This document shows positions 20,503-52,575 of a DNA stretch of 64,000 bases, one piece after another (positions within the stretch are counted from its first letter, which is position 1; each line of letters starts with the position of its first letter). Below the pieces are notes generated by a model that did not search any database, was not told the origin of the DNA, and saw nothing but the letters and a program-made list of their open reading frames with translations. Origin of the DNA: Gammaproteobacteria bacterium (GTDB lineage: Bacteria; Pseudomonadota; Gammaproteobacteria; Pseudomonadales; Pseudohongiellaceae); the NCBI GenBank assembly GCA_009692305.1, contig SHZK01000002.1, positions 124,001-188,000 on the forward strand, given 5' to 3'. Both the position numbers and the translations under genes were made by a program.

Positions 20503-20641
20503 GCACTGCGGGCTGTCAGCTCCAACCACTGTCGCCCCGGCCCTCCGGGCTACCATCTCTGCGGAAAAAGCCCTGTAAAGCGGTCTTTTTCCTTGCTCGG
20601 CGTGGCGCCTTTATGTGGTCTCCGCTGACAACCCGCAGTGC
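20503..20641 (-). repeat. Structured repeat A, copy 1 (reverse orientation)
   Basis: Outer arms 20503-20520 and 20624-20641 pair over 18 positions with one mismatch, which becomes a G-U pair on the minus strand. Read on the minus strand, an inner hairpin has an 8-bp stem GGAAAAAG/CTTTTTCC around the loop ACCGCTTTACAGGG (20563-20592). A second hairpin is GCCC-GGA-GGGC (20540-20550). The same two loops recur in copies 2 and 3 with different stem sequences. Confidence 0.8.
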
Positions 20642-20696
20642 TGGTTGATTGTGCATAACTATGTGAATTGGTGGCTTCGAAATAAAAGGGCGAAAT

Positions 20697-20775
20697 AAAA
20701 GGGGACAGACCTCTTTTTCATATAAGAAATCCGACAACTATATGTATTTGGCGAAAAAGGGGTCTGTCCCCTTTT
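20697..20775. repeat. Inverted repeat with GGGGACAGACC arms
   Basis: Arms 20697-20719 and 20753-20775 match as inverted repeats with one mismatch or so, with a 33-base spacer. The motif AAAAGGGGACAGACC resembles palindromes common in marine gammaproteobacterial genomes, some of which are REP-like units next to tyrosine transposases. No transposase is present. Confidence 0.75.
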
Positions 20776-20790
20776 TACTGCAAATTGTGA

Positions 20791-20950
20791 AGTGGGAACT
20801 GCGAGCGCAGGGGCGGGGGGATGCGTTGGCTCGGCGATCAAGCGCAGCACCGACTGACCGAGGAAAACCGCTTTACAGGGCTTCCGACCGAGGAAGGGAA
20901 CCCCGGAGGGGGGCAAGCTGCCGAGCGAACGCATCCCCTGCCCCGGCGCG
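20791..20950 (+). repeat. Structured repeat A, copy 2
   Basis: Outer arms 20805-20835 and 20920-20949 are near-perfect inverted repeats containing GATGCGTT.GCTCGGC. Inside, ACCGCTTTACAGGG (20867-20880) is held by a GGAA/TTCC stem (20862-20865, 20882-20885). The hairpin CCCC-GGA-GGGG is at 20901-20911. It is about 78% similar to copy 3 in the core, but the arm sequences differ. Confidence 0.85.
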
Positions 20951-21005
20951 TACTCTCAGCATTCAAAAATCCGAAATGCAATTTACCCCGCTAGCTCTAA
21001 ATATT

Positions 21006-22886
21006 TTAATCAGCGAGCAGTTCTTGCAACTCCAGCCACTCATCCTCGCTCTTGGTCAATCGCGATTTTAGTTCGCCCTGCTGCTGCAATAGAGTAGTTA
21101 GTTTTGACTTGTTTGATTCTTCATAGAGCGCAGCATCAGCCAGTTTTTCTTCCAGCTGTGTCAGTTGCTTCTGGATTTTATCGATATCTTTTTCCAGGGC
21201 TTGTTCCTGTTTACGCAGCGGCGCCTGTTGTTCGCGTTTGGCGGCGGCTTCCTGTCGTTGTTGTTTCTTGTCCAGTTTTTCCACGGGGGCTTTCACGGGT
21301 AATGCAGTTACACCGGGTGCTTCCTGTTTGCTGAGCCATTTCTCGTAGTCCTTGAGGTCGCCGCGGAATTCGGCGAAGACACCCTTGTGAATCGAATAGA
21401 ACTCATCCACCGTGTTGCCGAGCAGATGGCGATCGTGGGAGACGATGACCAGTGCGCCTTCGTATTCCTGCAAGGCTACGGTGAGGGCGTGCACCATGTC
21501 GAGGTCGAGGTGGTTAGTGGGTTCGTCCATCAACAGCAAGTTAGGTTGCTCCCACACGACTTTGGCCAGGGCGAGGCGGGCTTTTTCGCCGCCGGAAAAT
21601 ATTTTGATCTGCTGGTCGATGCGTTCGCCGTTGAAGTCAAAACCGCCGAGATAATTGCGAATCTCCTGCGCGTGTGCCTTGCGCTCCATTTTCTGGATGA
21701 GTTCAAAAGGCGTCGCGTCCAGATTCAGCTCGTCGACCTGGTGCTGGGCGAAATAGCCGATGCGCAATTTGCGCGCGCAGGTAATCTCGCCGCCCAGTTT
21801 CGGTAATTGTCCGGCCAGCACTTTCAACAGGGTAGATTTACCGCTGCCATTAAAACCCAGCAATCCGATGCGCGTATCAGAGCGAATACCAAGATTGATA
21901 TTACTTACCAGCGGCTCTCCGAATCCGATGACAAGTTCATCCACCTGCATCAGAAAATCCGGCAGTTGATCGAGCGCTGGAAAATGGAATGTGAAGGGAG
22001 AATCAATATGCGCCGGTGCGATATCCTGCATACGGTTCAATTCTTTTAGGCGGCTCTGCGCCTGCGTGGCTTTACTCGCCTTGGCACGGAAACGACGCAC
22101 GAATGCTTCGATCTCTGAACGGCGCCGCTGCTGCTTCTCATATAATGCTTGTTGTAGTGCCATGCGCTCGGCGCGCAGTTTCTCATAAGCGCTGTAATTG
22201 CCCGCGTACGCTATCAGTTTGCGATTTTCGAAACTGATTACCTGATCGATTACCGAGTCGAGAAAGGTACGATCATGGGAAATCAGCAGCAGCGTACCTT
22301 CGTAACGTTGTAACCACTGTTCCAGCCAGACTGTCGCTTCTAGGTCCAGGTGGTTGGTCGGTTCGTCCAGCATCAGAAGGTCTGAGGGGCACATGAGTGC
22401 GGCAGCGAGATTAAGCCGTACGCGCCAGCCACCGGAAAAACTGCTTATGGGCTGATCGTACATTTCCTTGTTGAAGCCGAGGCCGGACAGCAACTGCTCA
22501 GCGCGATTGGTAGTGCTATAGCCGTCGATATTTTCCAGTTCGCTGTGCAGTTTCGCCAGCGCGTTGTGATCGTGTCGCTCTTCGGCTGCAGCCAATGCTT
22601 GTTCGATGCGACGGTATTCTGTGTGCGCGTCGATTACAAACTCGAGTGCTGTGCGCGAACTACCGGGGGTCTCTTGCGACATGGTGGACGAGCGCATGCC
22701 GTTAGGCATGTCGATCGAACCCTGTTCAACGGGAATCTCGTGGGCCAGAGCCTTGAATAAACTGGTCTTGCCGGCACCATTGCGCCCGATAATACCGGTA
22801 CGCTGGCCACCGCGCAGCATCAGGCTTGCGTCTTCAATCAGGACCTGGGTCCCGCGCATCAGCACTACGTTATTTAGCGAAATCAT
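21006..22886 (-). CDS. ABC-F family ATPase, YheS-like
   Basis: A soluble protein with two ABC domains and no membrane part, of the ribosome-associated ABC-F group (626 residues). The first domain has Walker A GRNGAGKTS, signature FSGGW and Walker B LLMLDEPTNHLDL. The second has GFNGSGKST, FSGGEKARL and LLLMDEPTNHLDL. The inter-domain linker (about 235-300) is basic and helical. A lysine/glutamine-rich coiled coil ends the protein (about 535-625). This plan fits YheS/Uup. The role is probably in translation, and the exact function is unproven. Monocistronic, divergent from the two-component system. Confidence 0.9.
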   Translation of the reverse strand: MISLNNVVLMRGTQVLIEDASLMLRGGQRTGIIGRNGAGKTSLFKALAHEIPVEQGSIDMPNGMRSSTMSQETPGSSRTALEFVIDAHTEYRRIEQALAAAEERHDHNALAKLHSELENIDGYSTTNRAEQLLSGLGFNKEMYDQPISSFSGGWRVRLNLAAALMCPSDLLMLDEPTNHLDLEATVWLEQWLQRYEGTLLLISHDRTFLDSVIDQVISFENRKLIAYAGNYSAYEKLRAERMALQQALYEKQQRRRSEIEAFVRRFRAKASKATQAQSRLKELNRMQDIAPAHIDSPFTFHFPALDQLPDFLMQVDELVIGFGEPLVSNINLGIRSDTRIGLLGFNGSGKSTLLKVLAGQLPKLGGEITCARKLRIGYFAQHQVDELNLDATPFELIQKMERKAHAQEIRNYLGGFDFNGERIDQQIKIFSGGEKARLALAKVVWEQPNLLLMDEPTNHLDLDMVHALTVALQEYEGALVIVSHDRHLLGNTVDEFYSIHKGVFAEFRGDLKDYEKWLSKQEAPGVTALPVKAPVEKLDKKQQRQEAAAKREQQAPLRKQEQALEKDIDKIQKQLTQLEEKLADAALYEESNKSKLTTLLQQQGELKSRLTKSEDEWLELQELLAD

Positions 22887-22989
22887 CCTGCAAAATTCAT
22901 CGCGTTGAAAACCGTTTCTGATGGCACAAAGCGGCGTATCATACTACAAAATTGCTTTCATCAGATTAGATTCGTACTATTGCCCCCCC

Positions 22990-23688
22990 ATGAAGCAAAT
23001 CCTGATAATTGATGACGATGAAAAGCTGGGGCAACTGCTTACTCAGTACCTCGAACGTTATGATATGCAGGTGCACGTAGCACTGGCTCCCAGCAAAGGC
23101 TTCGAAATGTTAAAGCGGCTTAAGCCTGACCTTCTGATACTCGATGTTATGCTTCCGGAGAAAGATGGTTTCGAAATCTGTCGCGAGATTCGCGCCAAGT
23201 CTTCCATTTACGGGCAACTGCCTATTCTGATGCTCACTGCACACGCCGAAGTTACCGATCGCATTGTCGGCCTTGAACTTGGCGCCGATGATTACCTGCC
23301 CAAACCATTCGAACCACGTGAGCTGGTCGCGCGCATTCATAACATTCTTAGACGCAGCAGTGATGACAACTCGATGCGCGATATCAAGGCAATTAATGGC
23401 CTGGATGTCGAACTGTCACGACGAGAAGTCAAACTGGATGGCGAAATACTCGATCTGACTACAATGGAGTACGAGCTGCTGATCCTGTTCATGCAGTTTC
23501 CCAACAAGACTTTTACCCGTGACGAACTTATGAATCGTTTGCGTGGCATCGACGCAGAACTCTTCTCTCGAGCAGTAGATACTTTGGTAAGTCGCTTACG
23601 ATACAAGTTGAAAGACACCTCCAAGACACCGCGGTTCATCAAGACCGTGTGGGGACGTGGCTACACTTTTGTCGGCGAGCAAATATGA
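22990..23688 (+). CDS. OmpR-family response regulator
   Basis: DNA-binding partner of the kinase that follows. I use ATG 22990 (MKQILIIDDDE), which begins exactly at the receiver fold. A longer frame to 22921 adds an unrelated leader. The receiver has acidic residues at 8-10, phosphoacceptor Asp52 in LLILDVMLPEKDG, a Thr in MLTAH and Lys in LPKPFEP. The winged-helix domain covers about 130-230, with TFTRDELMNRL and RFIKTVWGRGYTF. It resembles RstA/OmpR. The stop overlaps the kinase start as ATGA. Confidence 0.92.
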   Translation: MKQILIIDDDEKLGQLLTQYLERYDMQVHVALAPSKGFEMLKRLKPDLLILDVMLPEKDGFEICREIRAKSSIYGQLPILMLTAHAEVTDRIVGLELGADDYLPKPFEPRELVARIHNILRRSSDDNSMRDIKAINGLDVELSRREVKLDGEILDLTTMEYELLILFMQFPNKTFTRDELMNRLRGIDAELFSRAVDTLVSRLRYKLKDTSKTPRFIKTVWGRGYTFVGEQI

Positions 23689-25010
23689 CCACACTCGTAC
23701 AAACTGTCAGACGCTCGCTTTTCTTCCGGCTGCTGCTCATCTTTGGTCTCACCGTTTTATTGTTTCTGATCATCATCTGGGGGTCGCTGCAGGCGATGAA
23801 CCAGAACGTGAACGTAGTCGATACCATTCCTGATTTCTTCACACGTAACATCGAATCCATCATCGAAGACATCGGCACACCGCCGAACCTCGGCAATGCG
23901 GTGCGTCTCGCCGACGAACTGGGGTGGATTATCAATATTCGCAACCCAATCATGCGCTGGAGTTCGGATAGTATTGATCGACTGGATGTGGATGCTTCCG
24001 AGTTTAGTCGAGTACTCACACCTGACGCCGAGGTTCGCACTGTTGCCACTGAAGACATTATCAAGGTGCAGCGTGGCGGCTATGATTTCTTCCTCTATCC
24101 GCGTGCGCTTGAGAATACTGGCCCGTCCTACGGCGTGTTATATATTGGCCTGGCACTTGCCAGTCTGGTGCTGTTCGCGAATTACTTCATGGTCAACCGG
24201 TTGCTTGACCCGGTGCGCTTGCTCAAGCGCGGTGCCGAACGAATTCGCAAAGGTGATTTAAGTTTTCGCGTGAAAACCAATCGGCAGGATGAGTTGGGCG
24301 AACTCACCGAAAGCATCAATCACATGGCAGACTCACTGCAATCGATGCTGGAGGCGAAGCGGCAATTGTTGCTCGCAATCAGTCACGAACTGCGCACGCC
24401 GCTTACGAGGGCAAAATTGCGCCTGGAATTCATGGAAGAGTCTGACGTCAAAGAGCAGTTGCGCGAAGACATCGATGAGATCGACTTGTTGATTTCAGAT
24501 CTGGTGGAAGCGGAACGTCTCAATAATGAACACGTGGCGCTTTCTTCAGAGTGGGTAGAAATCGGAGATTTCGTGCGCGCCGTAGCCTCACAGTATGAAT
24601 CCTGCGCAGGTGGTCTCGAACTGATAACGCCCAAACCGGATATCGAAGTATTCATCGACCGCTTGCGTATTCGCCTGCTAATTACCAATCTAATGAACAA
24701 CGCGATTCGGCATGGCCAGGAAAATCCGATTACGCTGGATATTTCTGGTGACGAAGAATGGGTGCAACTAAAAGTAATTGATCAAGGGGAAGGCATCGCG
24801 GCTGAACATCTGTCGAAATTGAGCGAGCCTTTCTATCGAGCCGACCGCTCACGCCAGCGCAATACTGGCGGCTTCGGACTCGGTCTGTATCTGTGTCGCC
24901 TGATCGCCGAGGCACATGGCGGCTCGCTCGCTATCTCCAGTAAAATTGGCGAAGGCACTCAGGTTACCGTGAAACTGCCCCGCCACCCTTCCCGCCCGGA
25001 TTCCGAGTAG
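23685..25010 (+). CDS. Two-component sensor histidine kinase, RstB/EnvZ-like
   Basis: Membrane sensor kinase of 441 residues from the ATG at 23685, translationally coupled to the regulator. Transmembrane helices lie near residues 15-38 and 150-170 and bracket a periplasmic domain of about 110 residues. A HAMP domain follows (RLLDPVRLLKRG...). The dimerisation box is ISHELRTPLTRAKLRLEF with the phosphoacceptor His. The ATPase has an N box (NNAIRHG), G1 (DQGEGI) and G2 (GGFGLGLYL). The signal is unknown. It converges on the ABC operon 15 bases on. Confidence 0.93.
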   Translation: MTTLVQTVRRSLFFRLLLIFGLTVLLFLIIIWGSLQAMNQNVNVVDTIPDFFTRNIESIIEDIGTPPNLGNAVRLADELGWIINIRNPIMRWSSDSIDRLDVDASEFSRVLTPDAEVRTVATEDIIKVQRGGYDFFLYPRALENTGPSYGVLYIGLALASLVLFANYFMVNRLLDPVRLLKRGAERIRKGDLSFRVKTNRQDELGELTESINHMADSLQSMLEAKRQLLLAISHELRTPLTRAKLRLEFMEESDVKEQLREDIDEIDLLISDLVEAERLNNEHVALSSEWVEIGDFVRAVASQYESCAGGLELITPKPDIEVFIDRLRIRLLITNLMNNAIRHGQENPITLDISGDEEWVQLKVIDQGEGIAAEHLSKLSEPFYRADRSRQRNTGGFGLGLYLCRLIAEAHGGSLAISSKIGEGTQVTVKLPRHPSRPDSE

Positions 25011-25024
25011 GAAAAGACCGGAAA

Positions 25025-26989
25025 TTACGCGGCGCGCCGACGGCGCTGCCCGCGTAAATAACCTGTCATCAACAATAGTATGGTCAGCAGAATCGGCACC
25101 AGTGCGGTGTTGATTGCTTTCAGGCGACTGCCCAATTGTTCGATGTCTTCCGTGAGCTGAAATTGCACGTCGCGCAGACGGCGGCGGGTATCTACCAGCT
25201 CGCTGTTGAACTGGTCAATTTCAGTCTGGATTTCCGGCGTGACCTGACCGACCAGTTGACCATCCTCGCCCTGATTCAGCTCTGCCAACTTTTGTTCTGT
25301 CTCGGCAAGTCGGTCCAGCAATTCCGCTTCTTCGGTGCGCAAGCGATCATCGGCCGTACGCTGCAAATCAATCACCCGGTTAAAGGGTCGGGAATATCTG
25401 CCACGACTGCGAATACTCACTAGATCGGCGCCGCCGCTCAAATTATCCAGAGCATTGATCACGAGGTCGCCATTGTTGGCAAACGGCTGTGGTATGCGCT
25501 GTCCAAGAAACTGGCCGACCTGAACCCACATACGGTCACTCAGCAGGTCAGTGTCTGCAAACAAGAGCAGATTAACTTCACTGCTGGAGCTAGCCAGATG
25601 GGGCACGACTGGTTCTTCGACGACAGGAGCTGCTGGGTCGGCCGCGGAGTCAATGCTAGTGTCTGCATCAGTTTCCGCCACCGCCGCTTCTGCCGCGACC
25701 GCTACCACCGGTCGCCCATTGGGAAACGCACTATTGATAGTGCCGCTGACCCGAGCCGCAATGGTAAATATCTGATTGGCGGAGACGAACTCATCGAACA
25801 ATATTGAAGGGTCCGAGACATCTTCGATAAAACCGCGATCCATCAGCATCGCATTGGTGGATGACTGCATGAGTGGTTCGAAGCGTGTGGTCGCGCCTGC
25901 CACCTGGGCAATGGCGCCACTGGAAGACAGGTTTATGGTTTCCAGGCGACTGGTGACAATGTCATCTCCTGCCAGATTGCCGCGCTGCACGCCCAACATA
26001 CCGAGGTGCGGCGCCGGACGTCCACCCTGACTCATCATCACTCGCAGAGCCAGGTCGCTGTCGGTGAGCACCTTGTCATTCTGGAATTCAACGCCCCAGC
26101 TCGTCAGCAGCACCGACAATTCAGAACTCATACCCGCCGGCACAAGCGTGCCTTGAGGGGAACGTCCAACCATGGAATCTGTGTTAGGATCGAGGAACAC
26201 GATGGTCTCGCCGCCACCAAGTACAAACTGGTCGATGGCATACAATAGCTGCTCGCTCAACCCTTCGGGATGCACAATCATGAGGATATCGATATCTTCA
26301 TCAATCGACTCGCTCGTAGCATCGACCCTGCGCACCTCATACATCTGGCGAATAATTTCCATGATCATCCAGGGTGATGTCGCCTGACCCATGGCAGGAT
26401 CGAAGCCTCCATCGATGCTCAAATCGGTGAGCAGACCAATTACCTGGCGCTCCGGATTGGCGACGTTTGCCACCAGCTTCATGAATTCATATTCGAGAAA
26501 CTCTTCCTGGTCCGGACGAATCAGCGACATCGTTTCGGTTACGGGCAAGCCCAATGGTGTGTCTTCAGTCTGGGCGACCACCAGACCGAAGTAAATTGCC
26601 TGTCCGCCCTGCGATACGGGTACGGCCTGCACACCATATTGCGTTGCAAGATCTTCGTCCTCGGAAAACGGCTCCGGGTCGATTGTGCGCATACTCAGGT
26701 TGCCGTTGGAGGCAATAACAATTTCGCGCAACAACTCCTGCACGCGCGTGCCATAGCTGCGAATCTGCGGCACATCTTCGGTCAGGCTCTCCGAATAGAA
26801 GAACATGAATTCGATTGGGTGCTCCAGATTCGACACGATATTGCGGGTGCCGTCAGCCAGTGAATACAAACGATCTTCGGTGAGATCGATTCTGAGACTG
26901 GGCAAGGCACTGATGATTGCCACGCTGATCACCAGCACCACTGCAATTGCTATGAGTCCAATGCCTGAAAATAGGGATTTACTGTTCAT
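25025..26989 (-). CDS. GldG-like periplasmic component of an ABC transporter
   Basis: A 655-residue membrane-anchored protein. The ATG at 26989 has a GGAGAC site and starts a transmembrane helix (residues 8-30). The long extracytoplasmic part matches the GldG/ABC-type 'auxiliary component' family, with SLADGTRNIVSNL and the DLTEDRLY motif. A low-complexity Ala/Asp/Val segment (about 425-460) and a coiled coil (about 560-620) precede a C-terminal helix. With the two genes upstream it forms a GldA-F-G-type exporter. Such systems are widespread in bacteria that do not glide, and the substrate is unknown. Confidence 0.85.
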   Translation of the reverse strand: MNSKSLFSGIGLIAIAVVLVISVAIISALPSLRIDLTEDRLYSLADGTRNIVSNLEHPIEFMFFYSESLTEDVPQIRSYGTRVQELLREIVIASNGNLSMRTIDPEPFSEDEDLATQYGVQAVPVSQGGQAIYFGLVVAQTEDTPLGLPVTETMSLIRPDQEEFLEYEFMKLVANVANPERQVIGLLTDLSIDGGFDPAMGQATSPWMIMEIIRQMYEVRRVDATSESIDEDIDILMIVHPEGLSEQLLYAIDQFVLGGGETIVFLDPNTDSMVGRSPQGTLVPAGMSSELSVLLTSWGVEFQNDKVLTDSDLALRVMMSQGGRPAPHLGMLGVQRGNLAGDDIVTSRLETINLSSSGAIAQVAGATTRFEPLMQSSTNAMLMDRGFIEDVSDPSILFDEFVSANQIFTIAARVSGTINSAFPNGRPVVAVAAEAAVAETDADTSIDSAADPAAPVVEEPVVPHLASSSSEVNLLLFADTDLLSDRMWVQVGQFLGQRIPQPFANNGDLVINALDNLSGGADLVSIRSRGRYSRPFNRVIDLQRTADDRLRTEEAELLDRLAETEQKLAELNQGEDGQLVGQVTPEIQTEIDQFNSELVDTRRRLRDVQFQLTEDIEQLGSRLKAINTALVPILLTILLLMTGYLRGQRRRRAA

Positions 26990-27000
26990 TGTCCGTCTCC

Positions 27001-27747
27001 CTAACTTGCTTTTCTGATTTCGATAACAATGGCGCTGGCAAACAGCCATGCACCGATAAACACGCTGAAGAACAGTATGTCGCGAATATCCAGCACACCC
27101 TTGGCGATGGAATCAAAATGGGTCAGAAAACCCATGGCAGAGAACGCATCGACAATTCCCTGCGGTACCCAGTCTGGAAATGCATCGAGCAGTATCGGCG
27201 AGCCCATGATCACAAACAGGAAGCAGATGCTGACTGTGAGGATAAAAGCAATTACCGAATTCTTGGTGCTTGCAGACATGCAGGAACCGATGGCGAGGAA
27301 GCCGCCTGCCATAAACCAGCTGCCGATGTAAGCTGCTGTAATTACGCCGTTGTCTGGATCGCCAAGATAGTTGACTGTAATCCAGATAGGGAATGTGAGG
27401 AACAAAGCGATTCCGGTCAATGCCCACGCCGCGAGAAACTTGCCAATAATTGCATCAGACAACTTCACCGGCAGGGTGAGCAATAATTCGATCGTGCCAG
27501 TCTTGCGCTCGTCTGCCCACAGGTTCATGGCAATTGCGGGAACCATGAACAGATAGAGCCAGGGATGAAAGCTGAAGAACGGCAACAAGTCGGCCTGGCC
27601 GCGGGCATAGAAGCCACCCAAATCAAATGTAAAGATGCCGTTGGAGATCAGAAAAATAACGATGAACACATAAGCCAGTGGTGTAGCGAAATAGCTGAAC
27701 AATTCGCGCTTGAAAATAATGCCAATGCTGCTTGCGGGAATAGCCAT
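27001..27747 (-). CDS. ABC-2 type permease, GldF-like
   Basis: A 248-residue permease with six hydrophobic helices. It starts IGIIFKRELFSYFATPLAYVF, the usual GldF/NosY-type N-terminus. The ADERKTGTIELLLTLP motif, a coupling helix of ABC-2 permeases, lies at about 78-93. Its ATG overlaps the ATPase stop (TAATG), so the two are translationally coupled. GldG follows 12 bases later. Confidence 0.9.
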   Translation of the reverse strand: MAIPASSIGIIFKRELFSYFATPLAYVFIVIFLISNGIFTFDLGGFYARGQADLLPFFSFHPWLYLFMVPAIAMNLWADERKTGTIELLLTLPVKLSDAIIGKFLAAWALTGIALFLTFPIWITVNYLGDPDNGVITAAYIGSWFMAGGFLAIGSCMSASTKNSVIAFILTVSICFLFVIMGSPILLDAFPDWVPQGIVDAFSAMGFLTHFDSIAKGVLDIRDILFFSVFIGAWLFASAIVIEIRKAS

Positions 27748-28682
27748 TACACACCTCCCTGTGCGCGTTGAGTTACGTTTCTGAACACATCTTCGAGTTG
27801 TCCGCGATTAACGTGAAACTCCAGCACCGGCCAGTGTTTGTCCTGGGCGATGGCAGACACTTTGGCGAATATTGGAACGCCACCGCTGGCGAAAATGGTA
27901 AAGCTGTGTTCCGCGTCGACATCTTTTTCGACACTGCCGACATCGGCGACACCGGCGAGATCAGCCACAAGATCATAGCTGTTGTTTAAGCGCACACTCA
28001 CGGCATGATGATACTTCGACTTGGCTTCCAGATTCGCAGGGGTACCGTCAGCCACGATCTTGCCATGGGCAATGATGATGGCGCGAGTGCATACCGCAGT
28101 CACTTCTTCCAGAATGTGTGTGGAGATGATGACGATCTTGTCGCGCGCCAGATTCTTGATCAGCTGCCTGACATGATGTTTCTGGTTCGGGTCGAGTCCG
28201 TCGGTAGGCTCATCCAGAATCAGCACCTTGGGGTCGTGCATAATTGCCTGCGCCAAACCAACGCGACGCTTGAATCCTTTCGACAGGGTGTCGATGGTCT
28301 GCTGGCAAACCGATTGCAGTTCCACTTCATTGATTACGTGCTGCACACGCTTGCTCAGTTCGTCGCCGGAGTAACCACGCACCCGTGCAATAAAATTCAG
28401 AAATTCCAGCGTGGTCATGTCGCTGTAGCAAGGTGCCCCTTCCGGCAGGTAGCCGATCAGCGACTTTGCCTCGATGGGGTGTTTGGTAATGTCGTAACCA
28501 TCGATAGTGACTGTACCCAAGGTGGGTGACAGAAATCCGGTGATGACTTTCATGGTGGTAGACTTGCCGGCGCCATTCGGGCCGAGAAAGCCCAGCACCT
28601 CACCTTCCTTTACATTAAAACTCAAGTCATCAACTGCGGTGAATTGATCAAATTTTTTCGTCAGCTTGTGTATTTCGATCAT
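27747..28682 (-). CDS. ABC transporter ATP-binding protein, GldA-like
   Basis: A 311-residue ATPase driving the GldF/GldG-like membrane parts. Walker A is GPNGAGKSTT, the signature region is LSKGFKRRVGLAQAI and Walker B is VLILDEPTDGLDPNQ. The switch His is in ISTHILEE. The signature serine-lysine-glycine (SKGF) in place of SGGQ is common in this subfamily. The C-terminal 90 residues are a regulatory extension of the DUF4162 kind. First gene of the leftward three-gene operon. Confidence 0.92.
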   Translation of the reverse strand: MIEIHKLTKKFDQFTAVDDLSFNVKEGEVLGFLGPNGAGKSTTMKVITGFLSPTLGTVTIDGYDITKHPIEAKSLIGYLPEGAPCYSDMTTLEFLNFIARVRGYSGDELSKRVQHVINEVELQSVCQQTIDTLSKGFKRRVGLAQAIMHDPKVLILDEPTDGLDPNQKHHVRQLIKNLARDKIVIISTHILEEVTAVCTRAIIIAHGKIVADGTPANLEAKSKYHHAVSVRLNNSYDLVADLAGVADVGSVEKDVDAEHSFTIFASGGVPIFAKVSAIAQDKHWPVLEFHVNRGQLEDVFRNVTQRAQGGV

Positions 28683-28824
28683 GTACTTGTTGATCCTTCA
28701 CATAGAAATATTAGTTAAATAAACGTCTCTAACGCCTCTAATGCGTACAGTCTCAGCGCCAAATTGCGAGGGGTAACTTGCGAGGGGCAAATATAGGCGG
28801 CTTGTGTGCAATTTTCAAGGCATC

Positions 28825-28859
28825 TTGACCTGTGTTTCCAGCGGTGCCCGGTTTATAAT
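28825..28859 (+). promoter_or_regulatory. Candidate promoter for lptM-lysA
   Basis: TATAAT at 28854-28859 is a perfect -10, 37 bases before lptM. TTGACC at 28825-28830 is a good -35, but its spacing of 23 bases is too long. The -10 call is firmer than the pair. Confidence 0.4.
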
Positions 28860-28895
28860 TGGCAGCAATCTGAATTCCGGTTCTGGCCTGCGCGT

Positions 28896-44170: not shown

Positions 44171-44212
44171 TCGAGCCCGATGCCAAATGTATATGCTAGA
44201 ATAGCGCTGCAC

Positions 44213-44254
44213 AGTTCGCACCGCATAGTTTGCACTGCATAGTTCGAACCGCAT
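44213..44254 (+). repeat. Three tandem copies of a 14-base unit
   Basis: AGTTCGCACCGCAT (44213-44226), AGTTTGCACTGCAT (44227-44240) and AGTTCGAACCGCAT (44241-44254) run head to tail between yggS and proC. They lie just downstream of a TGCTAGAAT -10-like element (44194-44202), so they would fall in the 5' leader. Confidence 0.85.
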
Positions 44255-44291
44255 AGACCGACAGCCCCCACAGATGCGGGCAGGAGACATC

Positions 44292-45116
44292 TTGGAATCC
44301 ACACGAATTGGCTTCATTGGCGCTGGCAACATGGCGAACAGCCTGATTCGCGGATTGCTTGCCAAAGGTGTCAATAACACTTCAATCTCGGCTGCTGATA
44401 TAGACTCGCACAAGCTGGAGCAATTGCGCAGAGCTTGCAAAATTCACACTAGTACCAGTACCGAGATCGTCGCAAATTGCGACGTCATTGTCCTGGCTGT
44501 AAAACCGCAAGTGATGAAGGCAGTGTGCCTCGATCTGGCCAAAGCATTGCAGGGGCGCAAGGTATTGCTGATCTCAATTGCGGCTGGCATAACTCTCGAG
44601 CACATGCAAAATTGGTTCGGCCCCGAAAGTGCGATTGTGCGTTGCATGCCTAACACACCGGCTCTGGTCGGCAAAGGTGCAACCGGACTTTTCGCCAATT
44701 CACAGGTTAACCAGGCACAGCGAAAACTCGCCGCGGATATCCTGTCAAGTGTTGGACTCAGTCTGTGGGTACCAAACGAAACTGATATCGATTCGGTCAC
44801 TGCTCTCTCCGGCAGTGGACCGGCGTATTTCTTCTTGTTCATGGAGGCAATGCAGGCAGCTGCTCAGGAGATGGGATTGCATCAGGAATTGGCCCGCAAA
44901 CTCACCTATCAAACCGCATTGGGCGCGGCCGAATTGGCTATGCGCAGCGAGGAGGATACAGCAGACCTGCGCCGCAACGTCACTTCTCCCGGGGGAACCA
45001 CCGAGCAGGCAATCAAACAGTTTACCGATGGCGGGTTACAGAAACTGGTGAGCAAAGCATTGCATGCGGCACGCAAACGCTCTGTCGAGCTGGCATCGGA
45101 GTTTGGCAAAGACTAA
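44292..45116 (+). CDS. proC: Pyrroline-5-carboxylate reductase
   Basis: Reduces pyrroline-5-carboxylate to proline with NAD(P)H. I prefer the TTG at 44292, which has an AGGAG site five bases before it. The ATG at 44274 lacks one. The Rossmann motif is IGFIGAGNMA. VKPQVM, PNTPALVGKG and the ALSGSGPAYFFLFMEA active-site helix are conserved, as is RRNVTSPGGTTEQAI. About 274 residues, normal length. Confidence 0.96.
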   Translation: MESTRIGFIGAGNMANSLIRGLLAKGVNNTSISAADIDSHKLEQLRRACKIHTSTSTEIVANCDVIVLAVKPQVMKAVCLDLAKALQGRKVLLISIAAGITLEHMQNWFGPESAIVRCMPNTPALVGKGATGLFANSQVNQAQRKLAADILSSVGLSLWVPNETDIDSVTALSGSGPAYFFLFMEAMQAAAQEMGLHQELARKLTYQTALGAAELAMRSEEDTADLRRNVTSPGGTTEQAIKQFTDGGLQKLVSKALHAARKRSVELASEFGKD

Positions 45117-45200
45117 TATTTCTGGCACATTCACGGCACATATTCCACGCAGTTTTAACGGCAGCTTGACTCACTTCAAACCAGGGAATCTTGAAACATA

Positions 45201-45800
45201 ATGGGCGCGACCAGTAATTCACTTATACTACTTTTCAATACACTCGGCGGATTGTACTTGTTGGCGATTCTATTACGATTTCTGCTGCAGATCGCCAAAG
45301 CCGATTTCTATAATCCTGTGTCACAATCCGTGGTAAAAATTACCGATCCATTGGTCCGGGTGTTGCGGAATTTCATACCCGGCTATCGCGGCGTGGATTT
45401 CTCGACTCTTGTGCTGGCGCTCATCATCGAAGCAGTGGCAATCTTTGTGCTGGTCCTTTTATATGGCGGCAGCCTTCCCGGCGTTGGTTATGTCATTACA
45501 TGGTCATTCGTCGGCATCCTGTATTTCATCATTAATATTTACTATTACGCCATTATTGCTTCGATTATCATGTCATTTGTTATGATGTTTTCCGGCAACA
45601 TGAACCCGCATCCGATTTTACGAGTAATTTGGCAACTCACTGAACCAGTCATGGCACCAATTCGCAAAATCATTCCTGCCATTGGCGGTCTGGATTTCTC
45701 CCCAATATTTATTTTTCTCGCTATCCAGATTATCCAGAGCTTCCTGATTTCCAGTTTTGGCATTACCGACCAGCATGCGATGGTAATCATAGGCATCTAG
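45201..45800 (+). CDS. yggT: YggT family membrane protein
   Basis: A 199-residue integral membrane protein with two YGGT repeats (about 15-85 and 105-180). Each repeat ends in a VxPxxRxIP-type motif; here they are DPLVRVLRNFIPGYRGVDFS and VMAPIRKIIPAIGGLDFS. The role is unknown, and a link to cation homeostasis or division has been proposed elsewhere. It lies between proC and metX. Confidence 0.93.
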   Translation: MGATSNSLILLFNTLGGLYLLAILLRFLLQIAKADFYNPVSQSVVKITDPLVRVLRNFIPGYRGVDFSTLVLALIIEAVAIFVLVLLYGGSLPGVGYVITWSFVGILYFIINIYYYAIIASIIMSFVMMFSGNMNPHPILRVIWQLTEPVMAPIRKIIPAIGGLDFSPIFIFLAIQIIQSFLISSFGITDQHAMVIIGI

Positions 45801-45869
45801 AGTGCTGGAGATTCAAGTAACTGTGCAATTCCCGAACACTAATTCACTTTTGGCCATAAACATTACATC

Positions 45870-47069
45870 ATGACTATCGCGATACCCTCAGATTCAGTTG
45901 GCCTCGTGCAACCCCGAGTGGAACATTTCGATGAACCTCTGGCATTGCGTAGTGGCGCCATATTGCCTGCTTATGATCTGGTCATTGAAATCTATGGCAC
46001 ATTGAATGCGGCACGCAGCAATGCCGTGCTCATCTGTCATGCCCTGTCCGGTGATCATCACGCAGCCGGTTACCACACGCTTGAGGACTCGAAGCCGGGC
46101 TGGTGGGACTCCGCGATCGGGCCGGGCAAGGCCATCGACACGAACCGGTTTTATGTAGTGAGCCTGAATAACCTTGGTGGCTGCGCCGGCAGTACCGGAC
46201 CGGTTTCAATCAATCCGGAAACCGGCAAACATTACGGGCCAAACTTCCCGATCATCACGGTACGGGACTGGGTAAACAGCCAGATGCGCCTGATGAATCG
46301 ACTCAAGATCGGCAAGTGGGCCGCCGTGATCGGCGGCAGCCTCGGCGGCATGCAGGTACTGCGCTGGGCGATCAGTTATCCAGAGCGATTGCGCAATGCG
46401 ATAGTAATCGCCGCCGCACCGAAACTGTCTGCACAGAACATTGCGTTCAATGAAGTTGCAAGGCATTCCATCACCAGCGATCCGAACTTTTTCGGAGGAC
46501 ACTACCTGGAGCATGGCACTTACCCCAAGCAGGGGCTCATGCTGGCGCGCATGGTTGGTCATATTACTTACTTGTCGGATACCGCGATGAGCGCTAAGTT
46601 TGGCAAGACAGTTACGGACTTCGAGAAACAGGGCGCGAACTTCGGACGGGATCTGCGCACTGGTAAACTGAGCTTTGGTTTCAATGCCGATTTTCAGGTG
46701 GAGAGTTATCTGCATTATCAGGGCGAACGCTTCTCCGAAAATTTCGATGCCAATACCTATTTGCTGATGACCAAGGCGCTGGACTATTTCGATCCTTCCG
46801 TTGATTACGACGGCGACCTGACGAAGGCGTTCGAGCACAGTGACTGCAGTTTTCTGATCATGTCCTTCAGTACCGACTGGCGCTTTCCGCCGGAACGATC
46901 ACGCGAGTTGGTGAATACTTTATTGCGCGCGAAATGCGATGTGAGTTATCTGGAGATTGATGCCGACCAGGGACACGACGCATTTCTGATGCCCATTCCA
47001 CGTTACATATCCGCCTTGTCTACCTATCTGGGCCGGGTGCATGAGGAGTTAGGTGAAGATGCGGCCTGA
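45870..47069 (+). CDS. metX: Homoserine O-acyltransferase MetX
   Basis: Activates homoserine for methionine synthesis. The 399-residue alpha/beta hydrolase has nucleophile Ser157 in GGSLGGMQ, and the [13 protein letters not shown] oxyanion region. The GHDAFL-type His-Asp end is also present (QGHDAFLMP). In gammaproteobacteria with a partner MetW, this enzyme usually prefers succinyl-CoA, and the sequence alone does not settle acetyl against succinyl. metW overlaps it by 17 bases. Confidence 0.94.
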
Positions 47070-47658
47070 CCAGGAAATTATTCAGGAATGGATTCAGCCA
47101 GGCAGTCGTGTACTCGATCTGGGATGTGGCGATGGCAGCCTGTTACTCTATCTCCAGAAAAGCAAAGGAGTGCGCGGAGTTGGACTCGAGATTGATGCCG
47201 GTAATATAGAGCAATGCCTGAGGAATGGTGTTAATGTCGTCGAACAAAATTTGAATAGCGGTTTGTCGAATTTTCGGAGCGCAAGTTTCGATACTGTTTT
47301 GCTCGCACAGACATTGCAGGCGCTCAGCAAACCGGATCTGTTGATTAACGAGATGCTGCGCATCGGCAAGAACGGCATTGTAACTTTTCCTAACTTTGGT
47401 AATTGGAAGAGTCGTGTATATCTCTGGTTCAAGGGTCGTATGCCGGTTTCAAAATTTATGCCACACCAGTGGTATAACACACCGAATATACATTTCTGCA
47501 CGGTGAAAGATTTTGACGCATTGTGCGAAGAGAATAAAATCAAGGTATTGGCGCGAACTGTTGTGGACTCGCAACACCAGGGTAGCTGGTACATGCGCGT
47601 CTGGCCAAATTTTCTGGGAGAGATTGCTATTTATCACATCACGAAGAGCCAACAATGA
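47053..47658 (+). CDS. metW: MetW, methyltransferase-like methionine biosynthesis protein
   Basis: A 201-residue SAM-methyltransferase-fold protein that accompanies and in some species activates MetX. The SAM motif is [12 protein letters not shown], and [13 protein letters not shown] is the family signature near the C-terminus. It begins inside metX and ends in ATGA overlap with rdgB, which shows tight translational coupling. Confidence 0.94.
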
Positions 47659-48263
47659 GCATGCATGAAATTGTGTTGGCTAGCGCTAACGCCGGCAAAC
47701 TGCGTGAGTTGCAGGCGATTCTGGATGCTTACGATGTGACGCTCGTACCCCAATCGGAATTTGAAATTGAGCCTGCGGAAGAAACCGGACTCAGCTTCGT
47801 CGAAAATGCCTTGATCAAGGCACGTCATGCTTGCAATGTCTCTGGCCTGCCGGCAATTGCCGATGATTCAGGTATAGAAGTGGATGCCCTGGAAGGCGAA
47901 CCGGGTATCTATTCCGCACGTTATGCCGGCATCAGTGGGCCTACTGCCGATGCGGCGAATAATGCATTGCTGCTGGCCGAATTGGAGCAGGTTCCGGAAT
48001 TGGAGCGCACGGCGCGCTTTCAGTGTGCCATCGTATTCATGCGACACGCGCTGGATCCGATGCCGCTAATCTGCCAGGGCACCTGGGAAGGCCGTATTTT
48101 ATTTGCGGAGAGCGGCGCCAACGGTTTCGGATATGATCCGCTGTTTTATGTACCGACCCATGCGTGTTCGTCCGCGGAACTTGATCCTGCCATCAAGAAC
48201 GCAATCAGCCATCGTGGGCAAGCCTTGCAACAACTGGTGAAATGCTGGAACTTCCACCTCTAA
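47655..48263 (+). CDS. rdgB: dITP/XTP pyrophosphatase (HAM1/RdgB)
   Basis: Removes inosine and xanthosine triphosphates from the nucleotide pool. The 202 residues show [15 protein letters not shown] (substrate site), [27 protein letters not shown] and SHRGQALQ, all family signatures. It overlaps metW by four bases and hemW by 22. Confidence 0.97.
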
Positions 48264-49387
48264 GTCTCTACATTCACGTTCCCTGGTGTATGCGGAAATG
48301 CCCGTATTGTGATTTCAATTCACACGAGGCAAGCGGCGCTATTCCCGAAGCACAATATGTAAAAGCTCTCTGTGAAGACTTCGACCAGGATCTTGAATTC
48401 ATCCAGGGTCGCCCGATTCAATCCATGTTCATTGGCGGTGGCACGCCCAGCCTGTTCAGTGCCAATGCCTACCGCCAACTGTTCGAACATATACAACAGC
48501 GCGCACAGTTCGCAGTTGCTTGCGAAATTACGCTTGAGGCAAATCCAGGTACGGCGGAGGCAGAGAAATTTGCCGCCTATCGTGCCGCTGGCATTAATCG
48601 GTTGTCGCTTGGCATTCAGAGTTTCGATGATGACCAACTAAAAACCCTGGGGCGGATTCATAGCGCGGCAGAGGCGCGCGCCGCGATAGCGATGGCGCGC
48701 GCCGCGGGTTATGACAATTTCAACCTCGATCTTATGTATGGCCTGCCGCAGCAAACCCCGACGCAGGCACTGTTCGATCTGGAGCAGGCCCTGACCTTTG
48801 GCCCTGCCCATCTGTCCTGGTATCAACTGACGATTGAACCGAACACGGTGTTTTACCACCAGCCTCCAGTCATTACGGCAGAAGAACCCATCATCGAGAT
48901 GCAGGACCTGGGGCGCGAACTACTCGACCAGCACGCATTGCTGCGCTATGAAGTTTCTGCCTACGCGCTGCCGCAGCGCAATTCTCTTCACAACCTGAAT
49001 TACTGGCAGTTCGGTGATTATCTGGGTATCGGTGCCGGTGCCCACGGCAAGATCACGCGTGCAAGCGCCGACGGCACCTCCGTATGGCGTATCCGCAAGC
49101 ACAAGCAGCCCAGGCATTATCTCGCCAATTCACTCAGTCGCCGCGCCGAGCAAGTTCAGCTGACAAGCGCTGCACTACCGCTTGAATTTCTCCTCAATGC
49201 CCTGCGCCTGCGCACCGGCTTCAGCACTGAACTGTTTGAGCGCCGCACCGGCATCTCTTTTAGCACCATAGGAAAGCGGGTAGAATACCTCGTCAATCAG
49301 GGCTTGCTTGTCTGGCACGAGGCTCACATTGTACCCACTGACAAGGGCTATGAATTACTCAACAGTGTGCTGGAAGAATTTGTCTAG
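48242..49387 (+). CDS. hemW: HemW, radical SAM haem chaperone
   Basis: A 381-residue radical SAM protein long annotated as oxygen-independent coproporphyrinogen oxidase (HemN-like). The cluster motif is [14 protein letters not shown] (CxxxCxxC). The HemW-type GGGTPSLF and LEANPGT follow, with a C-terminal HemN_C domain (about 300-370). Lacking the extra N-terminal HemN segment, it fits HemW, which binds and delivers haem. Last gene of the rightward series. Confidence 0.94.
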
Positions 49388-49465
49388 CGGCTGTTGGTGC
49401 CGGGCGATACCAAATTTAGTAAAGTGAATTAATCTCAGACTGATAAATCAATTAGCGAGAGTCGC

Positions 49466-49819
49466 ATGGAAAATCTCTATGAGAAACACTGCGAAGCGTG
49501 CCGACTGGGCGCACCGGTGGTTACTGTTGAGGAAGCGCACAAGCTGCTCATCAGCATTCCAGCCTGGAAAAAACAATTCCACGATGGTGTAGAAAAACTG
49601 ATCAGGGAATTCTATTTTGTGGAATTCAATGATGCCTTCAGTTTCACCTACAAGATCGCCAGCCTCGCCGAACGGGAAAACCATCACCCATCGATACTGA
49701 CGGAGTATGGCAAGGTTACGGTGTACTGGTGGACACATAAAATAAACGGATTACATGTCAACGATTTCATCATGGCCGCAAAGACAGACATGATCGCCAA
49801 GCTGGCAGCGAAAGCCTGA
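49466..49819 (+). CDS. phhB: Pterin-4a-carbinolamine dehydratase
   Basis: Regenerates the pterin cofactor of aromatic amino acid hydroxylases. The 117 residues include the active-site signature ENHHPSI with its paired histidines and the VTVYWWTHKINGLHVNDF strand. No phenylalanine hydroxylase is in the window. The GAG-type ribosome site and the ATG at 49466 fit. Confidence 0.94.
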   Translation: MENLYEKHCEACRLGAPVVTVEEAHKLLISIPAWKKQFHDGVEKLIREFYFVEFNDAFSFTYKIASLAERENHHPSILTEYGKVTVYWWTHKINGLHVNDFIMAAKTDMIAKLAAKA

Positions 49820-49848
49820 AGCCGCCCCATCAAACCTGGATTCCCATT

Positions 49849-51018
49849 ATGCCCAGCAAGATTCCAGACCTGTTGCACCAACTCGACAGCGTGATTCGTA
49901 TTCCAAGTATCAGTTCGGCGAACCCCGCTATCGACATGGGCAATCGTCTGGTAATCGAGCACCTCGCGGAACAATTTGAAGCACTCGGATTTACCTGCGA
50001 GATCATGCCTTGCGGTGAAGACACCGATAACCTTCAATCCAATAAATGTAATTTGCTGGCGACTCTGGGCAGCGGCCCCGGCGGGCTGGTACTAGCAGGA
50101 CACACGGATACAGTACCCATGGATGCCGCGTTATGGACGGTTGACCCGCTACGCCTGACCGACCGCCACGGCAAACTGTACGGACTCGGCGTTACCGACA
50201 TGAAGGGTTTCTTCCCGATTGTAATGGAAGCCGTGAAGCCATTTCTGGACGCGACATTCAAGGAACCGCTGATCGTACTCGCCACTGCTGACGAAGAGAC
50301 TTCCATGCAAGGCGCCCATCGAATCGTTGAACTGGGCCGACCGCGCGCACGCGTGGCGATTGTGGGCGAACCCACCAGTTTGCAACCGGTGCGTACTCAC
50401 AAGGGCGTCATGATGGAATCGATTCGTCTGCGCGGGCGCAGCGGCCATTCCTCCAATCCAGCGCTCGGCAATAATGCACTGGATGCAATGCATGCTGTGA
50501 TTGCCGAGCTGCTTGACTACAGGAAAGAATTGAAGCAACGCTATACCAGTAATCTGTTCGAGATTCCTTATCCGACACTGAATCTGGGCAGCATTCACGG
50601 CGGTGACAATCCGAATCGAATCTGTGGACACTGCGATCTCGAATTCGATGTGCGACTGCTGCCGGGAATGCACATCGATACGATACGGGAAGAGATTCGT
50701 AAAAGAGTGCAGCGAGTGACTGAGCCTCTGGATATCCAGTTTGAGCTGGTACCTTTGTTTGCCGGTGCTCCTGCCTTTCTCGCCAATGCCGATAGCAGAA
50801 TTCTGCAAGCCGCAGAAAAAATGACCGGGCACGGCGGTATCAGCGTTGGGTTCGGCTCGGAAGCGCCCTTTCTGCAACAGCTGGGCATTGATACGATTGT
50901 GCTGGGTCCGGGCAATATAGATCAGGCTCATCAGCCCGATGAATATATGACTGCAGATATGATACGGCCCTGCATTGAGATACTGCGCCAACTGATTACC
51001 CAGAACTGCCTGCAGTAA
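49849..51018 (+). CDS. argE: Acetylornithine deacetylase
   Basis: Zinc peptidase-family M20 enzyme that removes the acetyl group of N-acetylornithine. The 389 residues show the metal ligands in LAGHTDTVPMD and GVTDMKGF, the general base region TADEET and the dimerisation domain with KGVMMESIRLRGRSGHSS. It lies 55 bases before argA, so both arginine genes may be one unit. Confidence 0.95.
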   Translation: MPSKIPDLLHQLDSVIRIPSISSANPAIDMGNRLVIEHLAEQFEALGFTCEIMPCGEDTDNLQSNKCNLLATLGSGPGGLVLAGHTDTVPMDAALWTVDPLRLTDRHGKLYGLGVTDMKGFFPIVMEAVKPFLDATFKEPLIVLATADEETSMQGAHRIVELGRPRARVAIVGEPTSLQPVRTHKGVMMESIRLRGRSGHSSNPALGNNALDAMHAVIAELLDYRKELKQRYTSNLFEIPYPTLNLGSIHGGDNPNRICGHCDLEFDVRLLPGMHIDTIREEIRKRVQRVTEPLDIQFELVPLFAGAPAFLANADSRILQAAEKMTGHGGISVGFGSEAPFLQQLGIDTIVLGPGNIDQAHQPDEYMTADMIRPCIEILRQLITQNCLQ

Positions 51019-51073
51019 GCTTTACTGTCAGCACACCCAGAACAAGAAACAATACAACACAGAAGCAAGCTAT

Positions 51074-52396
51074 ATGGCCAATAACAATGAAATGATCGAG
51101 TGGTTTCGCTCATCCTCGACCTACATCAATGCCCATCGCAACAAAATCTTTGTCGTGTTGTTAAGCGGCGAGACACTGGCAAGCGCGAACTTGCCGAATA
51201 TAATTTATGATCTCAATCTGCTGCACAGCCTCGGCGTAAAACTGGTGCTCGTACACGGCTCGCGACCCCAGATCACCGCCGCGCTCGCCGCCAGTGGCAA
51301 GCAATCTGCTTATCGCCGCAAGCTTCGCATCACCGAAGCACACAGCATGGCCACCATCAAACAGGTGGTAGGCGGGCTCAGCATCGATCTGGAAGCAATG
51401 TTTTCCATGGGTCTGCGCAATTCACCGATGCAGGGCACCGACATTCGTGTCTGCCGCGGTAATTTTGTCACAGCGAAACCGGTCGGCATTCATGACGGCA
51501 TAGATTTTCAGTACACGGGCAAAGTCCGCAAAATTCACACACGCGCGATCGAACAGCAACTGGCACAAAATAACATCGTGTTGTTGTCCAACCTCGGCTA
51601 TTCCCGTACCGGCGAAGTATTCAACCTTACCGGTGAAGAAGTAGCGACCGAAGCTGCTATCGCCCTCAACGCTGAAAAACTGATTCTGTTTATTCCCAGT
51701 GATGGCATCAAAGACAGCAAGGGCAATCTGCTGGAAGCGCTGTCACCTGCCGATGCACAAACCTATGCCGCAGCTCTGGCGCAAAAGGAAGACACCGAAT
51801 CCGTATGTCTAAGTCACGCGCTGGATGCCGCCGTAAAAGCCTGCGCCAACAAAATCAATCGCTCGCATTTAATCAGTTTCGAAAAGAACGGTGCGTTGTT
51901 GCAGGAATTGTTTACCCGTGAAGGCAACGGTAGCCTAGTCAGCACCGATAGTTTCGCGGAACTCATCGATGCCACTATCGACGACGTCGTCGGCATCATT
52001 GAGCTGATTAAACCGCTGGAACAGGAAGGCATTCTGGTAGAACGTTCTCGTGAATTATTGGAAACCGAGATCGAAAATTTCAAGATTGTAAAACTGGAAG
52101 GCACTGTCATCGCCTGCGCCGCACTCTACCCTTACGCGGACAATCGCGGTGAACTCGCCTGCATCGCGATTCACCCGCAATACCAGAAAAACGGACACGG
52201 CGATCGCTTACTCGCCAGCCTCGAACTGCGCGCGCGCACCCTCAAATTAAACACGCTGTTCGTACTTACCACCGTCACCGATCACTGGTTCCTGGAAAAA
52301 GGCTTCGTAGCCGCCAGCCTTGCCGACCTCCCTGAGAAGAAACAACAGCTATACAACTACCAGCGCAAATCCAAAGTACTGATCAAAAATCTCTGA
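51074..52396 (+). CDS. argA: N-acetylglutamate synthase
   Basis: First step of arginine synthesis, acetylating glutamate. The 440 residues join an N-terminal amino-acid-kinase domain (about 1-285, FVVLLSGETLAS...VHGSRPQITAAL), which in this family binds arginine for feedback, to a C-terminal GNAT domain (about 295-440) with HPQYQKNGHGDRLL for acetyl-CoA. This is the bacterial ArgA fusion. Repeat A copy 3 follows 17 bases downstream. Confidence 0.97.
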   Translation: MANNNEMIEWFRSSSTYINAHRNKIFVVLLSGETLASANLPNIIYDLNLLHSLGVKLVLVHGSRPQITAALAASGKQSAYRRKLRITEAHSMATIKQVVGGLSIDLEAMFSMGLRNSPMQGTDIRVCRGNFVTAKPVGIHDGIDFQYTGKVRKIHTRAIEQQLAQNNIVLLSNLGYSRTGEVFNLTGEEVATEAAIALNAEKLILFIPSDGIKDSKGNLLEALSPADAQTYAAALAQKEDTESVCLSHALDAAVKACANKINRSHLISFEKNGALLQELFTREGNGSLVSTDSFAELIDATIDDVVGIIELIKPLEQEGILVERSRELLETEIENFKIVKLEGTVIACAALYPYADNRGELACIAIHPQYQKNGHGDRLLASLELRARTLKLNTLFVLTTVTDHWFLEKGFVAASLADLPEKKQQLYNYQRKSKVLIKNL

Positions 52397-52413
52397 TTAT
52401 TTTAAAGATGTTC

Positions 52414-52575
52414 AGTGGGAACTGCGAGCGCAGGGTGAATGGGTATTGTGACCGCAGCGATCAAAGCTTAGCACCGACTGACCGAGGGAGACCGCTTTAC
52501 AGGGCTCCCGACCGAGGGAGGGAACCCCGGAGGGGTGCAAGCTACGGAGGTCACAAAACCCATTTACCCGGCGCG
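52414..52575 (+). repeat. Structured repeat A, copy 3
   Basis: Outer arms 52428-52453 and 52549-52574 pair over 26 positions with three changes. The inner stem GGGAG/CTCCC (52486-52490, 52505-52509) holds ACCGCTTTACAGGG (52491-52504). CCCC-GGA-GGGG is at 52525-52535. It sits between convergent argA and folA. Confidence 0.85.

Follow-up and report, generated by a model that had tools for sequence, protein, structure and literature searches.

Folded intergenic modules in outward-facing doublets: a repeat family with REPIN-like layout in a Pseudohongiellaceae genome

Three repeat modules in intergenic space

The window analysed here is a 64,000-nucleotide stretch of the genome of a gammaproteobacterium of the family Pseudohongiellaceae (assembly GCA_009692305.1, contig SHZK01000002.1, positions 124,001 to 188,000, forward strand). 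It carries three copies of a palindromic repeat module of about 137–140 nt: two lie between a degP-like gene and an ABC gene, and one between convergent argA-like and DHFR genes (Table 1). A sequence-only reading of the window had placed three copies with shared loops here, and a covariance model recovered all of them. The stems which that reading quoted are present in the window sequence, both for the first loop (GGAAAAAG/CTTTTTCC, GGAA/TTCC and GGGAG/CTCCC) and for the GGA loop (GCCC/GGGC and CCCC/GGGG). Its statement that the outer arms differ almost fully between copies fails for copies 2 and 3, which are sisters of one subfamily (A) with 83.9% identity over 137 nt; copy 1 belongs to another subfamily (C). 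It also overlooked the pairing of copies 1 and 2, which together form one inverted doublet, the arrangement in which the element is usually found.

The loop motif ACCGCTTTACAGGG occurs once in each copy and has no fourth match in the window at up to two mismatches; the chance mean is 0.27, and three matches were reached in none of 100 shuffles. Across the whole genome from which the window comes (hereafter the own genome), the loop occurs 19 times, compared to zero occurrences of the reversed pattern.

Table 1. Modules, spacers and neighbouring genes in the window
Feature	Position	Strand	Evidence
Subfamily C module (copy 1), left member of inverted doublet; parts: outer stem P1, 5' bulge, P2, P3 hairpin (with loop motif), P4 hairpin with GGA loop	20504-20640	-	R2 99.8 bits, E 7.5e-19
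Loop motif ACCGCTTTACAGGG, copy 1	20571-20584	-	sequence
Doublet spacer, 168 bp	20641-20808	none	sequence
Inverted repeat AAAAGGGGACAGACCTCTTTTTC / GAAAAAGGGGTCTGTCCCCTTTT inside doublet spacer	about 20697-20719 and 20753-20775		sequence
GGGAACTGCGAGCGC, conserved 5' edge of A modules, at right end of doublet spacer	20794-20808		edge common to other A copies
Subfamily A module (copy 2), right member of doublet	20809-20945	+	R2 107.6 bits, E 1.6e-20
Loop motif ACCGCTTTACAGGG, copy 2	20867-20880	+	sequence
argA-like gene, upstream neighbour of copy 3, convergent with DHFR gene	51074-52396	+	gene families
Whole argA-DHFR spacer, module plus flanks; most simply a gain relative to 14 syntenic relatives	52397-52666	none	gap comparison
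Subfamily A module (copy 3), partner not detected	52432-52570	+	R2 119.0 bits, E 5.1e-23
Loop motif ACCGCTTTACAGGG, copy 3	52491-52504	+	sequence
DHFR gene, other neighbour of copy 3	52667-53194	-	gene families

Fold, covariation and strand

The sequence-only reading had taken the stems as a sign of selection on a fold, whether of RNA or of single-stranded DNA (ssDNA), and had named three outcomes that would speak against it: a lack of covariation in a larger alignment, a match to an Rfam family or to a known insertion element, and a family of only three copies. None of these occurred. In an alignment of 91 copies, described by a structure of 45 pairs, 89.8% of cells are paired, compared to 56.2% after shuffling and 37–46% when partners are slid. 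Double-sided changes are found in all 45 pairs, the covariation score is 0.796 versus 0.185 for shuffled data, and none of five measures was reached in any of 500 shuffles. Because the alignment was made by fitting to the model, it leans towards the structure, but the outer stem P1 also pairs in nearly all of 19 copies folded singly. No family of Rfam 15 matched the window at the gathering score, and in permissive scans of 22 loci no match fell on a module. (The permissive scans returned two sub-threshold matches to plastid untranslated regions in the spacer palindrome of one locus, L005, and one true tRNA in another, L188, away from the module.)

The fold is a three-way junction, in which an outer stem with a bulge carries a junction with two hairpins. 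P1 has at least 24 pairs, is largely free in sequence and is nearly perfect in most copies; the 5' bulge is close to AUNAAAG in most. P2 comes in two parts and the junction is rich in GA steps, in P3 a variable loop sits on a GAC...GGC head, and most P4 hairpins have a GGA loop. Many unpaired bases of the bulge and junction are conserved. Pairing of the AUNAAAG bulge with the CUUU in the P3 loop, as a pseudoknot, was tested and rejected: over 74 distinct bulge–loop combinations, mean complementarity was 3.23 versus 3.28 with loops shuffled, and 246 of 300 shuffles scored at least as high.

On the motif strand each window copy folds better than all 200 of its dinucleotide shuffles (z of -7.65, -4.67 and -6.66 for copies 1 to 3), and the antisense strands likewise fold well (-5.95, -5.12 and -5.26). 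Because palindromes fold well on both strands, folding strength cannot choose between them. A strand test was made on the outer stem: the 5' arm of each module was aligned to the reverse complement of its 3' arm, with all mismatches scored alike. Short-armed copies and duplicates were left out, and different ways of removing duplicates gave 160 or 157 copies. G·U outnumbers A·C by 240 to 39 in the former set and by 237 to 39 in the latter; counted per copy (n = 157), 112 show an excess of G·U, seven an excess of A·C, and 38 are tied. The same lean is seen on both sides of the 36 divergent doublets described below (64:10 for left members, 61:4 for right members), with both members leaning towards G·U in 23 pairs.

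Strand-symmetric processes predict equal numbers of G·U and A·C, yet G·U is far commoner. Accordingly, the fold of each module looks to be selected on its own strand, which means opposite DNA strands for the two members of a doublet. Own-strand bias in both members argues against mere maintenance of a palindrome, and also against a single folded strand bearing both modules. A mutational strand bias linked to transcription could contribute to the excess of G·U, and p-values for the bias are nominal, given that related copies share history.

Doublets, distribution and insertion sites

Three covariance models were used. R1, built from seven copies of subfamily B, finds 41 places in the own genome (E ≤ 0.1). 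R2, used for the wide searches, was built from 48 copies, after antisense and weak matches had been left out (E limit 1e-9). R3 is a core-only model: of 185 cores, seven were removed by length and the rest thinned by similarity to 87, from which 12 with large inserts or odd ends, and then six more, were removed; of the remaining 69, 49 were aligned separately, with no model built, and 20 sequences from one branch of the family made R3. Alignment of the own-genome copies with MAFFT, followed by inspection by eye, separated three subfamilies, A, B and C.

Modules closer than 450 bp (a cut chosen by us) were treated as adjacent. In the loci examined such pairs number 44, of which 36 are divergent, that is, facing outward, four are convergent and four tandem; the median doublet spacer is 98 bp. 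Members of a doublet often differ in subfamily, as do C and A in the window and A' and C' in all five doublets examined in genome G382 (types read by eye), one of which is spread over 3.4 kb. Same-type pairs are also found, for example A with A in L125, and three loci (L096, L097 and L082) hold alternating arrays. Some own-genome insertions, such as the window doublet and L121, are homologous over the whole doublet, and 38 of 722 colinear alignments between own-genome insertions extend more than 20 nt beyond the module's outer end.

Some copies of subfamily B at first seem solitary. Upstream of seven of eight such copies, at 46–105 nt, lies a second conserved hairpin of about 76 nt, part of which is also found at the eighth. 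It was missed by the covariance models; its central 25 nt occur ten times in the own genome at up to three mismatches, compared to none for the reversed control. We read this hairpin as an inverted, reduced partner of the B module. The same hairpin (for example at C52:10266-10290 and C36:15886-15910) can also be read as an open frame on one strand, about ...EVIVTEQSDAQRREGMITCESGGK.

Wide searches show that the family is patchily spread across the order. Besides the own genome, 14 of 389 genomes of the order have matches (E ≤ 1e-4), and with the own genus counted these fall in nine of 142 genera; R1 matches four of 18 relatives. Copy counts in other genomes are lower bounds, as scans of the order and the class scored up to eight and up to 13 candidates per genome, respectively. 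Across the class (369 genomes), R3 matches one of the 368 besides the own genome (E 6.6e-6); rarity outside the order is only suggested, because R3 represents one branch (20 sequences) and recovers 32 places in the own genome at E ≤ 0.01, fewer than R1 (41 at E ≤ 0.1). A pattern scan of named genomes gave at least 114 stretches, of which 80 were listed. These 80 together with one viral locus were searched with R2, and 70 of the 81 hold a model match (E ≤ 0.01); the other 11 seem to be either fragments at the ends of contigs or pattern hits that arose by chance in other phyla. Among the matches listed, the carriers by record title are Pseudomaricurvus (for example P. alkylphenolicus), Mangrovimicrobium, Halioglobus, Haliea, Oceanicoccus, Dasania, Seongchinamella, Pseudoteredinibacter and Pseudohongiella. 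Also among these matches, the inner domain appears at weak E values (6e-5 to 0.0035), in Deefgea, Chitinibacter, Formivibrio and Jeongeupia, which we take to be Chitinibacteraceae; one Chitinibacter copy is full length (E 3.2e-5). In the folds inspected from this group (records L138, L175, L188, L189, L202, L156 and L164), a separate long hairpin follows the inner domain, for example CTGACTTTCTTTGGCGAAGCAAAGAAAGTCAG in L175; the two have the look of structured modules that have become fused. Two plasmid queries returned no match, and the single pattern match among viral contigs was unsupported by the covariance model.

The presence of the modules in the window is specific to this lineage. In all 14 relatives with both genes, the gap between argA and DHFR is 1–52 nt and holds no module match, compared to 276 nt here (gaps measured between protein alignments); two further relatives have argA without DHFR on the fetched stretch. 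Likewise, none of the 11 relatives with both degP and ABC genes on the stretch has a module match between them, although this is a less clean empty site, because some relatives carry other sequence there. Presence at one site and absence from its orthologues, by which a mobile non-autonomous element is recognised, was thus found at both insertions (14 of 14 and 11 of 11 relatives without). The modules being missing from all syntenic relatives checked, each insertion is either a gain in this lineage or a loss in every relative, and a gain is far simpler. Copies also have a preferred setting: 21 of 45 copy-bearing spacers lie between convergent genes, compared to 78 of the 532 remaining spacers (odds ratio 5.1, p 1.4e-6), gene orientation being taken from simple open reading frame (ORF) calls of at least 150 aa, not from a gene finder, in 40 fetched stretches and the window.

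Several features near the modules are recorded here for completeness. The degP-like ORF (19302-20525), as called from a TTG start at 20525, overlaps the C module; in 10 of 11 relatives the alignment begins only at residue 48–56, and therefore the true start is probably near 20380, which would put the doublet upstream of the gene. The inverted repeat of the doublet spacer (20697-20775; in short, AAAAGGGGACAGACC.../...GGTCTGTCCCCTTTT) is one that we take to resemble short REP-type (repetitive extragenic palindromic) palindromes, and another copy (L112:9921-10117) has a similar inverted repeat, AAAAAAGGGTCAGACACCTTTTTT, within its P3 hairpin. Beyond the outer ends of several modules (L118, L113, L120 and L126) there are direct repeats of about 21 nt (GATCGAAGGAGAACTGTTTGA in L118, GCGATCCAGCC...CATC in L126), and the 3' flanks of these copies look as if the module end had been repeatedly copied.

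How the family may spread

The sequence-only reading had listed, as one option, a mobile palindromic unit moved by an enzyme encoded elsewhere. This has become the best explanation: at a probability of roughly 0.55, we consider the family to be non-autonomous mobile elements with a REPIN-like organisation (REPINs are REP doublets) and much larger ends, served in trans by an enzyme that reads folded ssDNA; the copies behave as parasitic DNA does. The usual unit is an inverted pair of outward-facing modules, each of about 140 nt and not identical to its partner; on its own strand each module forms a long stem of variable sequence that bears a conserved junction with two hairpins. An enzyme encoded elsewhere would recognise each module as folded ssDNA, one end per DNA strand, and would copy or move the doublet into spacers, where it may survive best between convergent genes.

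The neighbourhood of the copies was searched for such an enzyme. The 792 ORFs within 4 kb were clustered, and no cluster found in at least four loci was transposase-like as judged by eye, a survey that is blind to a mover present in fewer than four; no recurring mobility gene was seen near the copies. The clusters found in at least four loci look like host genes, presumably ABC transporters, dehydrogenases, two-component proteins and similar ordinary genes (named by eye). No transposase was found among genes enclosed by widely spaced modules at L088 or, by eye only, at L204, L107 and L158. At L088 (5819-9533), A' and C' modules face outward around 3.4 kb containing three genes, none of which has a Pfam match; they are secreted-looking by eye and are possible cargo.

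A number of observations weigh against a mobile element of this kind. No mobilising enzyme was found, either in the neighbour survey or in tests of RAYTs (REP-associated tyrosine transposases). Y1 transposase genes (PF01797, E ≤ 1e-5) are present in 12 of 15 carriers and 10 of 15 non-carriers, some genomes being incomplete, and none of the 21 Y1 stretches from carriers (22 of 23 matches, about 4 kb per side, some cut by contig ends) holds a module by R2 or R3. The ends of the insertions and any target-site duplication are not defined, the relatives being too diverged for exact junctions, and at the degP–ABC site some relatives, including the closest (L284, with a gap of 852 nt), hold other sequence. 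Eight of the 44 adjacent pairs are not divergent, and some copies, including the one at 52432, have no detected partner. In the divergent doublets the lean towards G·U is confined to one member in ten of 36 pairs and absent from both in three. Finally, an excess of G·U fits RNA as well as ssDNA.

This last point leads to the main rival, which we regard as possible but doubtful: that the folded strand is RNA, each module being a non-coding structured RNA whose transcription runs outward from the doublet or reads through from genes on either side. Such an RNA might be selfish and spread by way of an RNA intermediate, or it might serve convergent genes as a stabiliser of 3' ends or as a processing site. 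The G·U pairs of the motif strand, six times commoner than A·C, are as expected of RNA, as is the conservation of many unpaired bases in the bulge and junction, and in the favoured spacers between convergent genes read-through from either side would meet one sense module. However, the analysis revealed no promoter, transcript or conserved neighbour gene, nor an Rfam relative; the family is patchy among genomes and its orientation to genes is mixed. Moreover, a retro-copied transcript needs only one sense module, yet own-strand bias is seen in both members.

A mobile element with folded ssDNA ends must next be set against REPs and REPINs proper, moved by a host RAYT, a Y1 HUH transposase. The resemblance is close in layout: dispersed extragenic inverted doublets, alternating arrays and compensatory changes are all features of REPINs and of bacterial interspersed mosaic elements (BIMEs) (PMC3116915, PMC2817692), as are members of different types (the Y and Z2 units of Escherichia coli) and the lack of a gene of their own. 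In addition, all nine carriers with at least four matches have a PF01797 match. In the own genome, which is 94% complete, the sole PF01797 match at E ≤ 1e-5 (C21:9588-9911) lies about 5 kb from a doublet (C21:4029-4381). That match carries one in-frame TGA, for which reason the own genome may lack an intact RAYT, and three of the 15 carriers have no PF01797 match at that threshold. RAYT genes are reported always to be flanked by two inverted REPs (PMC2817692), whereas the carrier Y1 stretches, as noted above, hold no module; the only R2 match in all 30 Y1 stretches is a 60-nt piece at a contig end in a non-carrier genome (L326, E 0.0021), and R3 matches none. RAYT as the mover is therefore disfavoured: it does not clearly track the family, and no RAYT flanked by modules was found in the carriers tested. 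The modules themselves are three-way junctions of about 140 nt, compared to REP hairpins of 20–40 bp (PMC3733652), and have conserved bulge and junction nucleotides, with 41 copies in the own genome; no GTAG-like foot was noticed in the flanks inspected, no dedicated scan having been made. Thus the inverted-doublet unit of a REPIN is present, while the 20–40 bp hairpin and the cognate flanking RAYT are not. Because it fails the tests of size and of cognate RAYT, the family is REPIN-like in layout and is not filed as a REPIN; that these are REPINs proper we consider improbable.

Two further explanations fare worse. If template switching or gene conversion between arms kept the palindromes perfect, with no selection on the fold, then a long outer stem whose sequence varies while most copies keep it almost fully paired is what one would see; repair that treats strands alike predicts as many A·C as G·U, which the observed 240:39 contradicts, and the conserved bulge and junction would be left unexplained, making this account very improbable. 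The least probable is that the modules are attC-like folded recombination sites of a tyrosine recombinase. In its favour, structure is kept while sequence varies, and one doublet of genome G382 (L088) encloses three genes; against it, the copies lie scattered, most of them without an intervening gene, and in the neighbour survey neither a cassette array nor an integrase-like cluster was noticed (no model of attC boxes was run).

Other described repeats offer partial parallels, each compared by description only. MRSC-65-2, described as one long stem containing a UYCCGG repeat, with more than 20,000 members in diverse phyla (PMC11109978), is likewise a covarying motif in many copies whose orientation is inconsistent, and it has been judged that it may be selfish and may function as DNA; the present family differs in its branched fold, set in outward doublets, and in its occurrence in one order, with the inner domain in Chitinibacteraceae. 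It also fits the loose class of mobile or repeat structured motifs of the same paper. ERIC, YPAL and RU elements are intergenic and of similar size (103–168 bp), several being predicted to fold (PMC2759123, PMC2267715), whereas covariation of every helix across genera and heterotypic doublets mark the family described here. No description of this repeat family was found in the literature searched, the scope of which excluded subscription papers and supplements.

A bolder form of the mobile-element reading is that the family represents a new class, with three-way-junction ends that are read as folded single strands from opposite DNA strands, as ssDNA aptamers or as RNA, and a mover that is not a RAYT. 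This we put forward tentatively, as a real possibility short of an even chance.

The family is a clear case of a bacterial intergenic repeat with own-strand bias for a complex fold at both ends. The own-strand test of G·U against A·C could be applied to other repeat families, to learn which strand of a palindrome matters. Members of the family are also structured sequences that, if not recognised, could be taken for riboswitches or new non-coding RNAs. Should the mover come to light, a recombinase or retro-element with recognition of three-way junctions would be added to those known.

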